From Aestuariivirga sp. (GTDB lineage: Bacteria; Pseudomonadota; Alphaproteobacteria; Rhizobiales; Aestuariivirgaceae), in contig NZ_JADCDB010000026.1 of the NCBI RefSeq assembly GCF_020252395.1, positions 1-44,364 of the forward strand: a DNA stretch of 44,364 bases. Direction: 5' to 3'. This document shows, piece after piece, positions 38,705 through 44,364 of the stretch. Positions within the stretch are counted from its first letter, which is position 1, and the number at the start of each line of letters is the position of its first letter. The notes under the pieces were generated by a model. It saw only the letters and a list, made by a program, of their open reading frames with translations, ran no database searches and was not told where the DNA came from. The position numbers were made by a program, and so were the translations under genes.

Positions 38705-40237
38705 ATGCAGGAGATCCTCGAGAAGCTTGAAGCCCGCCGTGTGCAGGCCAGGGCCGGTGGCGGGGAAAAGCGCGTGGCCGCGCAGCATGCCAAGGGCAAG
38801 CTGGCGGCGCGGGAGCGGATCGCGCTGCTCCTCGACGAAGGCTCCTTCGAGGAGTTCGATATGTTCGTCGAACACCGCTGCACCGATTTCGGCATGGAAG
38901 ACCAGAAGCTGCCGGGCGATGGCGTGGTGACGGGCTGGGGCACGGTCAATGGCCGGGTGGTCTATGTCTTCGCCAAGGACTTCACCGTGTTCGGCGGCTC
39001 GCTGTCGGAGGCGCACGCCCGCAAGATCACCAAGATCCAGGACATGGCGCTGCAGAACCGCGCGCCCATCATCGGCCTGTTCGACGCCGGTGGCGCGCGC
39101 ATCCAGGAAGGTGTCAACGCGCTCGGCGGCTATGGCGAGGTATTCCAGCGCAACGTGATGGCCTCGGGCGTCATCCCGCAGATTTCCGTCATCATGGGCC
39201 CCTGCGCGGGCGGCGACGTCTATTCGCCGGCCATGACGGATTTCATCTTCATGGTGCGCGATACGAGCTATATGTTCGTCACCGGGCCTGACGTGGTGAA
39301 GACCGTGACCAACGAGACGGTGACCGCCGAAGAGCTCGGCGGCGCCTCCGTCCACACCACCAAGTCTTCCATTGCAGACAAGGCCTTCGAGAACGACGTC
39401 GAGGCCCTGCTTCAGATGCGGCGGCTCATCGACTTCCTGCCATCCTCCAACACCTCGCCCCTTCCCGAATTGCCGAGCTTCGATGCCGCGGACCGCATCG
39501 ACCCCTCGCTCGACACGCTGATCCCCGCCAATCCGAACCAGCCCTATGACATGAAGGAGCTGATCCTGAAGGCCGTGGACGAGGGCGACTTCTTCGAGAT
39601 CCAGGAGGCGCATGCGAGGAACATCATCACCGGCCTCGCCCGCATCAACGGCCGCACCGTGGGCATTGTGGCGAACCAGCCGATGGTGCTGGCAGGCGTG
39701 CTCGACAGCGACGCGGGCCGCAAGGGCGGCCGCTTCGTGCGCTTCTGCGACTGTTTCAACATCCCCATCGTGACGCTGGTCGATGTGCCCGGTTTCCTGC
39801 CTGGCACGGCGCAGGAATATGGCGGCCTCATCAAGCACGGCGCCAAGCTGCTCTTCGCCTATGCCGAGGCCACCGTCCCCAAGATCACCGTCATCACGCG
39901 GAAGGCCTATGGCGGCGCCTATGTCGTCATGGCGTCGAAGCACCTGCGGGGCGACGTGAACTATGCCTGGCCCACCGCCGAGATCGCGGTGATGGGCTCC
40001 AAGGGCGCGGCCGAGATCATCTACCGCTCGGAACTCTCCGACCCGGCGAAGATCCAGGCCCGCATCAAGGACTATGAGCAGCGCTTCGCCAATCCCTTCG
40101 TTGCCGCCGAGCGCGGTTTCCTCGACGAGGTGATCATGCCGCACTCGACAAGGAAGCGCATTGCGCGCGCGCTCAACATGCTGCGCGGCAAGGAATTGCA
40201 GAACCCCTGGAAGAAGCACGACAATATTCCGCTGTGA
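38705..40237 (+). CDS. pccB: Propionyl-CoA carboxylase beta chain
   Basis: The 510-residue carboxyltransferase half of a biotin-dependent acyl-CoA carboxylase, moving CO2 from carboxybiotin to propionyl-CoA. [32 protein letters not shown] and [16 protein letters not shown] are the acyl-CoA and biotin pocket motifs. I chose ATG 38705 ([12 protein letters not shown]), the family start; the longer frame covers the ATP12 gene. The alpha (biotin) chain is not in the window. Alternatives such as acetyl- or methylcrotonyl-CoA carboxylase are less likely from the N-terminus. Confidence 0.93.
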
Positions 40238-40244
40238 TTCCGGC

Positions 40245-40273
40245 TTGACGCAATGTCACAATGCGCTCATTCT
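40245..40273 (+). promoter_or_regulatory. Candidate promoter of the unknown three-gene cassette
   Basis: CTTGACG provides -35 TTGACG at 40245-40250; CATTCT follows after 17 bases at 40268-40273. It lies just after the pccB stop, with about 80 nt to the first cassette gene, suggesting separate transcription. Confidence 0.45.
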
Positions 40274-40353
40274 TTAGCTTGATGAAGCGGGTATCCGTTT
40301 GGGCGCAGCGTGCATCGTAATCGTGCCTTTCACTGCCCAACAAGAGGTGGTCC

Positions 40354-40629
40354 ATGGCTGTCGAACAACTCAATATCAGGCCTTTGTTCCGCGCGACCGA
40401 AGTGCCCTGTGACGGGCAGGTCGGAGACGTGCTGATCGTAACGCCGCTGTCCGAGAAGGACATCGATCCGGACAAGCCCGGCAATGTGCAGGTTTTCATC
40501 TGCACCCGCGCGTCCAATGCCGAGACAGGGCCAGCCATTTGGTCGCGCCTGCGCTTCGATGGCTATACCACCTGCAAGAGCCCCTTGCCCAACCCGGTTA
40601 AGGATATACCCGTGCTGAGGGGCGGTTGA
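40354..40629 (+). CDS. Unknown 91-residue beta-rich protein (cassette gene A)
   Basis: No family is recognised. The protein starts MAVEQLNIRPLFRATE after AAGAGGTGG, has no signal peptide or membrane span and is predicted beta-rich. GDVLIVTPL, then VQVFICTRAS and PAIWSRLRFDG resemble the G-D-x-x-x ... L-Y-x-C-T ... W-x-K pattern of small knob domains in phage tail fibres. It has two other cysteines (PCDG and TTCKS). It opens a three-gene same-strand run with genes B and C. Function cannot be assigned; a structural tip or adaptor role is inference. Confidence 0.75.
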   Translation: MAVEQLNIRPLFRATEVPCDGQVGDVLIVTPLSEKDIDPDKPGNVQVFICTRASNAETGPAIWSRLRFDGYTTCKSPLPNPVKDIPVLRGG

Positions 40630-40694
40630 CGCGGTGCAGCCCCGCCGGCCCAAGACGTGCAGCCCCATAACGCGCCGATTACCGGAGGATGGCC

Positions 40695-41510
40695 ATGGCC
40701 AAGCTGACGATCAGGACTGACACCCAGGAAATAGCGATCAATGCCGTCTCGGACGGACCCGGCCTAGTGGCCGAAACATCGTCGGCGGCGATGGACCCTG
40801 CCATCTCTGGCGTGGCCAGCAATCCCGGGGGCGGCGGTGCCGGGCTTATCGGGCAGACCTTCGGCAGCGGCGCGGGCGTGGTCGGCCTCGGCAACGACAG
40901 GGGCCTCGGCGGCTTCTTCCAGAGTGTCACGCGCGGGGCGTTGGTTTGCGAAACGCGGTCCGCGGTGGAAGCCGCTGCGGCGGTGTTCCAGAAGAATCCG
41001 GCCGGCGTCTCTGCTTTGCATGTCGAACATATCACGGATGGCACGGCCGCCTTCTTCAAGGGCAATGTGATCGTCACCGGCGATGTGTCGTTTCCCGGCG
41101 CCGATTGTGCCGAGGAGTTCGTTATTGCCGATGCAGCCCCGGCCGAGCCCGGCAGCGTGATGGTGATGGCGGCGGACGGCCGCCTGCTGCCGTGCACCGA
41201 GGCCTATGACCGTGCCGTGGCCGGCGTGGTGGCGGGGGCGGGGGACCTGCGTCCGGGCATCGTCATGGGGCGCGATCCGGCCGACACCCGGCGGCGCTCG
41301 CCGATAGCGCTGGTCGGGCGCACCTTCTGCAAGGTCGATGCGGCTTATGGCGCAATCGCCACGGGGGACCTGCTCACCTCCTCGGCCACGCCGGGCCATG
41401 CGATGAAAGCTGCCGACCCCGCGCGGGCCTTCGGCGCCGTCATCGGCAAGGCCATGGCCCCGCACGCCGCGGGCACGGGCCTCATTCCGATACTTGTCGC
41501 GCTGCAGTGA
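40695..41510 (+). CDS. Unknown protein with a tail-appendage-like C-terminal domain (cassette gene B)
   Basis: A 271-residue soluble protein. I chose ATG 40695, 7 nt after GGAGG; an ATG at 40689 overlaps that site. Residues 36-76 are glycine-rich repeats (GVASN, GLIGQ, GVVGLGN, LGGFF). Residues 118-145 read AAFFKGNVIVTGDVSFPG and then ADCAEEF. The rest, PGSVMVMAADGRLLP, VAGVVAGAGDLRPGIVMG, ALVGRTFCKVDA, TPGHAMKAADPARAFGAVIG and GLIPILVAL, is a conserved domain of unknown function seen in many bacteria. It resembles in layout the autoproteolytic C-terminal domains of phage neck or tail appendages (Peptidase_G2 type). The catalytic residues cannot be identified with certainty. Structural, trimer-forming function is inference. 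Confidence 0.78.
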   Translation: MAKLTIRTDTQEIAINAVSDGPGLVAETSSAAMDPAISGVASNPGGGGAGLIGQTFGSGAGVVGLGNDRGLGGFFQSVTRGALVCETRSAVEAAAAVFQKNPAGVSALHVEHITDGTAAFFKGNVIVTGDVSFPGADCAEEFVIADAAPAEPGSVMVMAADGRLLPCTEAYDRAVAGVVAGAGDLRPGIVMGRDPADTRRRSPIALVGRTFCKVDAAYGAIATGDLLTSSATPGHAMKAADPARAFGAVIGKAMAPHAAGTGLIPILVALQ

Positions 41511-41522
41511 AGGCTCTGTGCC

Positions 41523-42839
41523 ATGCGCAATGTCCGGGCCTTCGTCAAACGCAGCGGCAATTCCAGCCTGCGGGGCTATTTCGGTTCGGATGCGGTGGAC
41601 TTCGACCCGCGCAGCCTCAGCCTGCGCCAGAACATCCGGAAGGACCTGGCCAAACGCGTCTATGACCTTGCCTCCGGCGCCACCGGCGACGACGAGGAGG
41701 ACGAGATCCGGGATCTCATGGCGGGGGCGGACAATTCCTATGAGCTGATCCGCATGATGCAGGCGATCGGCGGCTGGCCGGGGCTGGACGACGAACTGCC
41801 CGAAAGCCACCTCGACGATGTCGCGCAGGGTCTCGTGCGTGTACTGGACCAGCGCGACTATGCGCCCTATCGCCTGGGGCGGCGTCACCTTGCCGTGCTC
41901 GACTACAACGCGCCGCCCACGCTGGACCAATGCTTCCGCAACTTCCTGCTGGCGTGGCCCGCGCCGTTCCGCGGCGATGAAATCGACTTGATCCTGGCTG
42001 ACAAGCAGCGCCTGCTGAAGGATGTGACGCGGGCCGCCCTTCGTGAGCGCGTGGTTATGGCGGGCGCTGCCGCCATCGATCCCGCAACGGTTACGCAGTA
42101 TGCCGGGGCCGGCCTGCACCGCGGGGGCGAACTGGTGGCGCTGATGCATGAGACCCGATACACGCTGCGCATTTGCTCGGCCTTGGCCCGCCTCGATTAC
42201 TTCCCGCTCTATGACGTTATCCTTGACATGGCGCGGCCGCTGCCAATGACCAATGCACAGCGCATCGCATGCCGGGACACATGCGTGCGGCTGCAGCCGG
42301 AATTCGCCGCCGCGGCGCGGCTGGTCGCGCTTGCTGGCAGCGGCGAGGCCAAGGCCACCGTCAACCGCTTCACCAATGCGCTGCAGGCCGCCATCGACAA
42401 TTTCCCGGCCGCGGCGCCTAACCCTGGGATCCTCAATGCCATTGCGGCGGCGTTGGGCGGTGTCGCTGGCAGCATTACCGATCTGGTGACGCTGGTGTCC
42501 AATTTGCCGGAGGCGCTGCTGGGCGAGATCACTGTCGCATCCATTCTTGGCACCGACGATGACGATAAGGCCCGGCTGATCGCAAGCGAGCTCCATGCGC
42601 TTTCCCTGCTGGGGCAGGCGCCCTTCCGCATCAAGACCGCGATGATCAACGCGCTCCTCAGCGGCTCGACCGACGATGATGACGAGATCGCCATCATCCG
42701 CATCCTGGAAGAGAGCCGCGCCCTGTGCCAGGCCGAAGTCTACCAGTTGTCCACGGCGGCCACCTGGGAGTCGCTCTGGTCATCCGTGGATGGCGACGAA
42801 TACGACATACTGGAAGGCGTGCTCGACGCCCCAGTCTGA
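41523..42839 (+). CDS. Unknown 438-residue protein with acidic annexin-like repeats (cassette gene C)
   Basis: No named family is recognised. Starts 12 nt after gene B. Residues 49-105 and 379-434 follow one pattern: SGATGDDEEDEIRDLM and SGSTDDDDEIAIIRIL, then about 25 helical residues with a Trp, then acidic DELPESHLDDV or DGDEYDILEGVL. A third copy begins at 342 (LGTDDDDKARLIASEL). This recalls annexin repeats, in which G-x-G-T-D-E precedes a helix and an acidic residue about 40 positions on completes the calcium site. The middle (110-330) is helical with a weakly hydrophobic stretch at 300-330. No signal peptide. Calcium or membrane binding is inference. Confidence 0.78.
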   Translation: MRNVRAFVKRSGNSSLRGYFGSDAVDFDPRSLSLRQNIRKDLAKRVYDLASGATGDDEEDEIRDLMAGADNSYELIRMMQAIGGWPGLDDELPESHLDDVAQGLVRVLDQRDYAPYRLGRRHLAVLDYNAPPTLDQCFRNFLLAWPAPFRGDEIDLILADKQRLLKDVTRAALRERVVMAGAAAIDPATVTQYAGAGLHRGGELVALMHETRYTLRICSALARLDYFPLYDVILDMARPLPMTNAQRIACRDTCVRLQPEFAAAARLVALAGSGEAKATVNRFTNALQAAIDNFPAAAPNPGILNAIAAALGGVAGSITDLVTLVSNLPEALLGEITVASILGTDDDDKARLIASELHALSLLGQAPFRIKTAMINALLSGSTDDDDEIAIIRILEESRALCQAEVYQLSTAATWESLWSSVDGDEYDILEGVLDAPV

Positions 42840-42881
42840 CAGCCCGAGACAAGGCAGCGTCGGCTGTTGTAGCATCCGCTC

Positions 42882-44141
42882 ATGGACATCACTTCGCTTG
42901 CAACCCGCCTCGGCCTGGCCCTGGCGCTGGGCTTCGTCATCGGCCTTGAGCGCGGCTGGAAGGAACGGGGCGAGGGGGAGGGGAAGCGCGCGGCGGGGCT
43001 TCGGACCTTTTCGCTGATCGGCCTGATGGGCGGGATGTTCGGCATGCTGTCGCTGGGGGGCGACCGCATTTTGCTGGCGGCGGGTTTCGTGACGACGGGC
43101 GCGGTGATGGCCGCCTTCATCTCGCGGGAGAGCCAGCGTGAGGGCGACTACAGCGCCACGACGCTGGTGGCCGCGCTCCTCACCTTCATGCTGGGCGCCT
43201 CCGCCGTGCTGGGCGACATGAAGATCGTAGCCGGGGCGGGCGTGGTCACCGTCGGGTTGCTGGCCTACAAGACGCAGCTTCACGGCTGGATTTCCCGCAT
43301 CACATGGGACGAGCTCCGCTCCGGCTTCTTGCTCGCCGCGATGACCTTCATCGCGCTCCCGCTGCTGCCCGACCGCCCCATTGATCCGTGGGGCACGCTC
43401 AACCTGCATGAGCTCTGGCTGATCACTATTCTCATCGCGGCGATCTCCTTCCTGGGATACGTCGCGGTGAAGATCGCCGGGCCCTCGCGCGGGCTCGTCA
43501 TGGCGGCGGCGCTGGGCGGGCTCATCTCCTCGACAGCCGTGACGCTGACGCTGGCGGGTCTCGCGCGATCAGGCGCCGCAAGGCTGGGGCTGCTGGCGGG
43601 CAGCATCCTTGCCTCGGGGGCGGTGATGATGGCGCGCGTCCTCGTCCTTGCCGGCGTGCTGAACCTTTCGCTGGCGCTGGCGCTCGCCGTACCGCTCCTG
43701 GCGGCAGCGCTGGTCCAGGCGATTGCCGCCTGGGTGCTGATCGGCCGGGGAAAGAACGGCGGGGCGAAGGCAGAGGACCTCGCCCACAAGAACCCCTTCC
43801 TGCTCTCGCAGGTCCTGCGCTTCGGCGCGATGCTGGGTGCCGTGATGCTGGCCGCGGGCATCGCCCACAGCGTCTATGGCGGGGCGGGGCTGATGGCGGT
43901 GGCGGCCATCTCGGGCTTTGCCGACGTCGATGCCATCACCCTCTCTGTTGCCAAAATGGGTCCCGCCTCAGTGACGGGCGCTGCGGCGGTGCTGGTGGCG
44001 GCCGGCGTCAATACGCTTGCGAAGGCCGTCTATGCGGGCGTTGCTGGCGGGGTGAAGCTCGGGGCGCTTCTGTTCGGGCTGAATGCCGCCGCGCTGGCGG
44101 TGGCGGCGGCGTTTTTCCTGCTGGTTCCACCGTTGCGCTAG
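42882..44141 (+). CDS. MgtC/SapB family membrane protein with DUF4010 domain
   Basis: A 419-residue polytopic membrane protein with about twelve helices. The N-terminal MgtC part has LGLALALGFVIGLERGWKER and RTFSLIGLMGGM; the longer remainder, with RGLVMAAALGGLISSTAVT and GFADVDAITLS, is DUF4010. MgtC-type proteins are linked to magnesium limitation and virulence, but this two-domain group is uncharacterised. It begins 42 nt after cassette gene C. Its stop codon lies exactly at the junction with the IS256 remnant, so its last residues may have been altered. Confidence 0.88.
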   Translation: MDITSLATRLGLALALGFVIGLERGWKERGEGEGKRAAGLRTFSLIGLMGGMFGMLSLGGDRILLAAGFVTTGAVMAAFISRESQREGDYSATTLVAALLTFMLGASAVLGDMKIVAGAGVVTVGLLAYKTQLHGWISRITWDELRSGFLLAAMTFIALPLLPDRPIDPWGTLNLHELWLITILIAAISFLGYVAVKIAGPSRGLVMAAALGGLISSTAVTLTLAGLARSGAARLGLLAGSILASGAVMMARVLVLAGVLNLSLALALAVPLLAAALVQAIAAWVLIGRGKNGGAKAEDLAHKNPFLLSQVLRFGAMLGAVMLAAGIAHSVYGGAGLMAVAAISGFADVDAITLSVAKMGPASVTGAAAVLVAAGVNTLAKAVYAGVAGGVKLGALLFGLNAAALAVAAAFFLLVPPLR

Positions 44142-44364
44142 CAGCTGGCGCACAGCACCTTGGAGACAGCGGCCTTGATCCCCTCATGAGCATCGGAGAC
44201 GACCAGCTTCACGCCTCTCAGCGCGCGCCGCGTCAGCTTGCGAAGGAAGGCGGTCCAGATGGGTTCGGCCTCCGCGGTGCCGATCTCCATACCCAGAATC
44301 TCGCGCCGTCCGTCGCTGTTGACGCCTGTAGCGATGATGACGGCGAGCGAGACGACACGCCCGC
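44138..44364 (-). pseudogene. Truncated IS256 family transposase (cut by window edge)
   Basis: Reading leftward, the frame gives VVSLAVIIATGVNSDGRREI, then LGMEIGTAEAE, WTAFLRKL and LVVSDAHEGIKAAVSKVL, the central DDE region of IS256/mutator transposases including the aspartate of SDAHEG. The family normally continues with W-Q-R-C-x-V-H-F, but here it ends in CASC and TAG at 44138-44140, just where the MgtC-family gene stops. The 3' third, with the catalytic glutamate, is gone, so this copy cannot be active. The 5' part lies outside the window. Confidence 0.85.

Follow-up and report, generated by a model that had tools for sequence, protein, structure and literature searches.

RESULTS

Three genes at an insertion site

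We analysed a 44,364-nucleotide stretch of the Aestuariivirga sp. genome (assembly GCF_020252395.1, contig NZ_JADCDB010000026.1, positions 1 to 44,364; hereafter the window), in which three genes, called here A, B and C, stand on one strand between pccB and an MgtC/DUF4010 gene. That A, B and C form one conserved and mobile unit located at an insertion site is well supported by our data. The open reading frames (ORFs) of 91, 271 and 438 residues and the 12-nt gap between B and C were found as the initial annotation had described them, and the right neighbour is confirmed by family matches (PF13194, 1.6e-49; PF02308, 4.5e-17). The left neighbour takes its name pccB from that annotation and from its sequence, without a family-library scan. 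The features are as follows.

40238-40353, + strand: leader of the module, with TTGACG at 40245-40250, kept in the same-genus copy
40354-40629, + strand: gene A, 91 aa, a conserved small protein that has three cysteines but no family match
40695-41510, + strand: gene B, 271 aa, glycine-rich N-terminal half and conserved C-terminal domain
41523-42839, + strand: gene C, 438 aa, predicted to be helical, with two diverged acidic helix-loop-helix copies
42840-42881, + strand: right edge of the insertion, ahead of the DUF4010 gene; boundary approximate

Exact peptide patterns of C, scanned against 84,980 species genomes, returned two loci, a number that is a lower bound with records very near the window possibly omitted: a same-genus relative (Aestuariivirga sp., L002, the same place as G031 and G799 of the genome searches and counted once) and Sphingomonas sp. 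LaA6.9 (L003). In both, A, B and C keep their order on one strand. With the Sphingomonas C as query, a match was obtained in a single one of 72,556 plasmid records, a conjugative Rhodococcus plasmid, where A and B lie immediately upstream of C and transposase genes are present within a few kb. Identity to the window proteins is 92-96% in L002, 46-57% in Sphingomonas and 43-55% in Rhodococcus, while the latter two share 63% (A), 57% (B) and 54% (C) with each other. Thus the trio is complete in 4/4 genomes or records found with C, spanning three lineages, and its occurrence in the same order in Aestuariivirga, in Sphingomonas and on the Rhodococcus plasmid extends it to two phyla. The proposal that the three genes form one system is borne out by this joint recurrence in unrelated genomes and by the insertion site described below; the neighbourhood search for B beside C, suggested at the outset, found them together in unrelated genomes, A included.

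The trio is rare among the sampled genomes. C was detected in 2/61 relatives (own genome and G031), in 1/386 genomes of the class (the own genome) and in one of the five genomes of the genus of the Sphingomonas genome, namely that genome itself. B was found in 3/61 relatives, the third match being weak (G034, 4.1e-4, 41% over residues 52-119), and its C-terminal domain in 2/397 genomes of the phylum at 1e-8; A was seen in one of these 397, again the own genome.

The site itself was compared across genomes carrying pccB, which was found in 34/37; 30 loci entered the comparison (the window and 29 others), and four further matches were without a locus. At three of the 29, all same-genus (L023, L025, L026), the DUF4010 gene directly follows pccB without A, B or C, and therefore the trio is an insertion in the window. 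The other 26 have neither the DUF4010 gene nor the trio in flanks of ∼1.5 kb, including two uninformative loci that end at or inside pccB (L030, L044). Upstream of A, the match to the three empty sites breaks off at the pccB stop codon (40235-40237) or no more than two bases away from it; on the right the boundary is blurred. Because the trio is missing from the relative whose pccB is most similar (98%), it has probably been lost or transferred within the genus.

A, B and C are under purifying selection. The ratios of non-synonymous to synonymous substitution rates (dN/dS) between the window and the same-genus copy are 0.103, 0.056 and 0.076, close to that of pccB (0.093), and these values together with conservation in other genomes show that the genes are not chance ORFs. 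For B, an alternative ATG start at 40689, six bases upstream, would give 273 residues. GC content is 0.60 (A), 0.69 (B) and 0.65 (C) against 0.64 for pccB and 0.69 for the DUF4010 gene; marked compositional foreignness of the trio was rejected, its base composition being near that of the surroundings with A somewhat lower in GC. The claim that the trio has its own promoter, proposed at 40245-40273, is weaker: scanning 40150-42950 for the consensus revealed no sigma-70-like promoter, although the relative of the same genus retains the TTGACG at 40245. An IS256 remnant had also been noted nearby; an ORF resembling an IS256-type transposase fragment does lie at the contig end past the DUF4010 gene (44138-44290, - strand), but it is recognised by eye only, which makes the claim a weaker one.

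Genes that accompany B on other plasmids

At E<=0.01, B had matches in 11 plasmid records, of which two were weak (Leptospira, 28%); its gene neighbourhood was inspected in six of the 11. Homologues of A stand upstream of B in L002, in L003, on the Rhodococcus plasmid (L008) and on a Paraburkholderia plasmid (L009); a plasmid search with A itself found it in two records only. The Paraburkholderia A homologue (L009:11628-11945) is unannotated and absent from the PLSDB gene table. On that plasmid A and B are followed by a 164-residue gene and a metalloprotease-like gene (M6, 2.5e-4, under cut-off), without C. Elsewhere the gene after B is again different: a Reprolysin-like gene (2.9e-4) and a HEAT-like gene in Rhodobacteraceae SC52, both under cut-off, a 244-residue gene without family on a Streptomyces plasmid, and, in Runella, a protein whose annotation includes a T9SS sorting domain, while Acaryochloris has no annotated gene within 1.2 kb after B. 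In these last four tblastn placed no A beside B. The third gene of the module may thus be exchangeable, but exchangeable cargo is a pattern drawn from few cases.

In Sphingomonas the trio is followed (L003:9426-14066) by a 940-aa gene with partial relatives in 13 plasmid records, a haloarchaeon included, by a DUF2515 gene (2.7e-23), and by a 272-aa gene in which a caspase/CHAT-like H...C pattern can be made out by eye. These genes (D, E and F) were set aside as members of the system because none of them accompanies the trio on the Rhodococcus plasmid and because, of the 13 plasmid records with a D relative, the four inspected gave no tblastn match to A, B or C within the stretches examined.

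The sparse, mobile distribution, the varied genes after B (two of them metalloprotease-like) and the transposase genes near the Rhodococcus copy are what one might expect of a mobile conflict system, either defensive or toxin-like, in which C or another gene after A-B would be the effector and B or A the sensor or carrier. We consider this somewhat unlikely, as the PADLOC defence models give no match to the three proteins at E<=0.1 and no toxin or nuclease domain rises above chance level in C.

The C-terminal domain of B and phage proteins

No curated family of Pfam, PHROGs or NCBIfam matches A, B or C; weak matches in these libraries and in PADLOC were taken as chance. Sequence searches of the PDB with C, B, the Runella relative and profiles A5, A7 and A4 likewise gave weak matches only, the best being a ribosomal protein (0.0073 over 27 positions), also taken as chance.

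In B a variable, glycine-rich N-terminal half (about 1-127) precedes a conserved C-terminal domain (about 128-271, ∼145 residues), which recurs on other repetitive proteins with different shafts. This arrangement is shared with the Peptidase_G2 and intramolecular-chaperone tips of phages (PF11962), and B had been likened to such self-processing appendage tips. The likeness holds in part: the Runella homologue matches Peptidase_G2 (3e-4, 20.7 bits), but below the curated cut-off of 25, window B has no match at E<=10, B is not in a phage, and head-decoration or scaffold models score about equally for other relatives. Among eight B-domain members, Peptidase_G2 matches one (0.0094), and PF23982, phrog_766, phrog_673 and phrog_8960 give weak matches in one or two (best 0.016 and 0.0012), the window domain matching only PF23982 of these families, at 0.19. 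What sets B apart from the head-decoration and scaffold families, besides the weak scores, is that no capsid gene was recognised near it.

Another reading, which we judge unlikely, derives the trio from a phage or tail-like particle: a fibre, a companion and an accessory protein, domesticated and retained as an adhesin or competition factor. It would account for the fibre-like B, for its relatives' weak matches to phage tip, head-decoration or scaffold models and for the resemblance of A to tail-fibre knobs, seen by eye only; the Runella B relative also shows weak similarity (E 0.07) to a protein of a Sinorhizobium phage. Against it, none of 50,697 phage records contained a relative of B at E<=0.01, pattern-based scans of viral contigs confirmed none, and a tail sheath (PF04984) has no match at E<=0.001 in 5/5 genomes or records (own, same-genus and Sphingomonas genomes; Rhodococcus and Paraburkholderia plasmids, chromosomes of both excluded), with matches in 3/14 control genomes (Escherichia coli, Bacillus subtilis, Synechococcus). 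The initial description of a set without sheath is therefore upheld. The same result separates the trio from extracellular contractile injection systems, which it resembles in its fibre-like and cargo-like genes, and near whose core genes Annexin is named among the domains (PMC8213781). As to the Sinorhizobium phage, the protein in question is a hypothetical one of phage Phosso (L055:3516-5396), located one gene from a very long virion structural gene; its weak similarity is to the C-terminal domain of the Runella B-type protein.

Acidic repeats and fold of C

C holds two acidic helix-loop-helix copies (residues 41-70 and 370-399) whose repeat score exceeds that of all 300 shuffles. Their loops read SGATGDDEE and SGSTDDDDE, neither of them the GxGTD calcium motif. 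The view of C as annexin-like did not hold up in the family search: PF00191 matches neither C nor four homologues at E<=10, and its single match in the own genome lies elsewhere (E 2.0, under cut-off). With bacterial annexins (PMC3894181) C shares a patchy distribution and an acidic loop between helices, but it lacks the PF00191 match and GxGTD. A two-domain Rhodococcus imtechensis protein listed there could be a relative of C.

The structural check proposed earlier was carried through for C as fold searches, but these yielded neither a clear relative nor, in the best 50 matches listed of each, an annexin chain, which leaves room for an annexin relative. The domain model of C retrieved Smaug-type PHAT folds at ranks 1-2 and astrotactin-2 at rank 20; the astrotactin-2 paper (PMC4892435) describes an annexin-like domain in that protein and counts a Smaug structure as one of its neighbours. 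An intracellular Ca2+-responsive membrane or scaffold complex with an annexin-like C, to which these fold matches, the two acidic units and the lack of an N-terminal export signal (by eye) would lend themselves, appears quite improbable.

DISCUSSION

We tentatively favour reading A-B-C as a horizontally spread protein module of a fibre-like B, a small companion A and an exchangeable helical partner C, which stands outside any recognisable phage or tail machine; we put this forward as possible rather than probable. In this reading B would form a fibre-like, probably oligomeric shaft tipped by the conserved, presumably beta-type domain, with A as its cap or adaptor. C would then dock on B as partner or cargo, with acidic repeat units that may serve in metal and membrane binding. 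Inspection by eye revealed no N-terminal export signal, so either release would depend on lysis or a non-classical pathway, or the assembly acts inside the cell.

A bolder version of this protein module goes further and, in our opinion, is rather doubtful: A-B would be a phage-independent, plasmid-borne fibre platform on which C, metalloproteases and other partners replace one another and are carried across phyla. It would represent a novel type of mobile assembly for protein delivery or at the surface, one of whose partners has an annexin fold that arose from an independent sequence.

Three hypothetical genes that looked unrelated can now be expressed and tested together, as a single unit that has an insertion site and recurs across phyla. 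Should the third gene prove truly exchangeable, A-B would act as a portable carrier, with function predicted by the partner.
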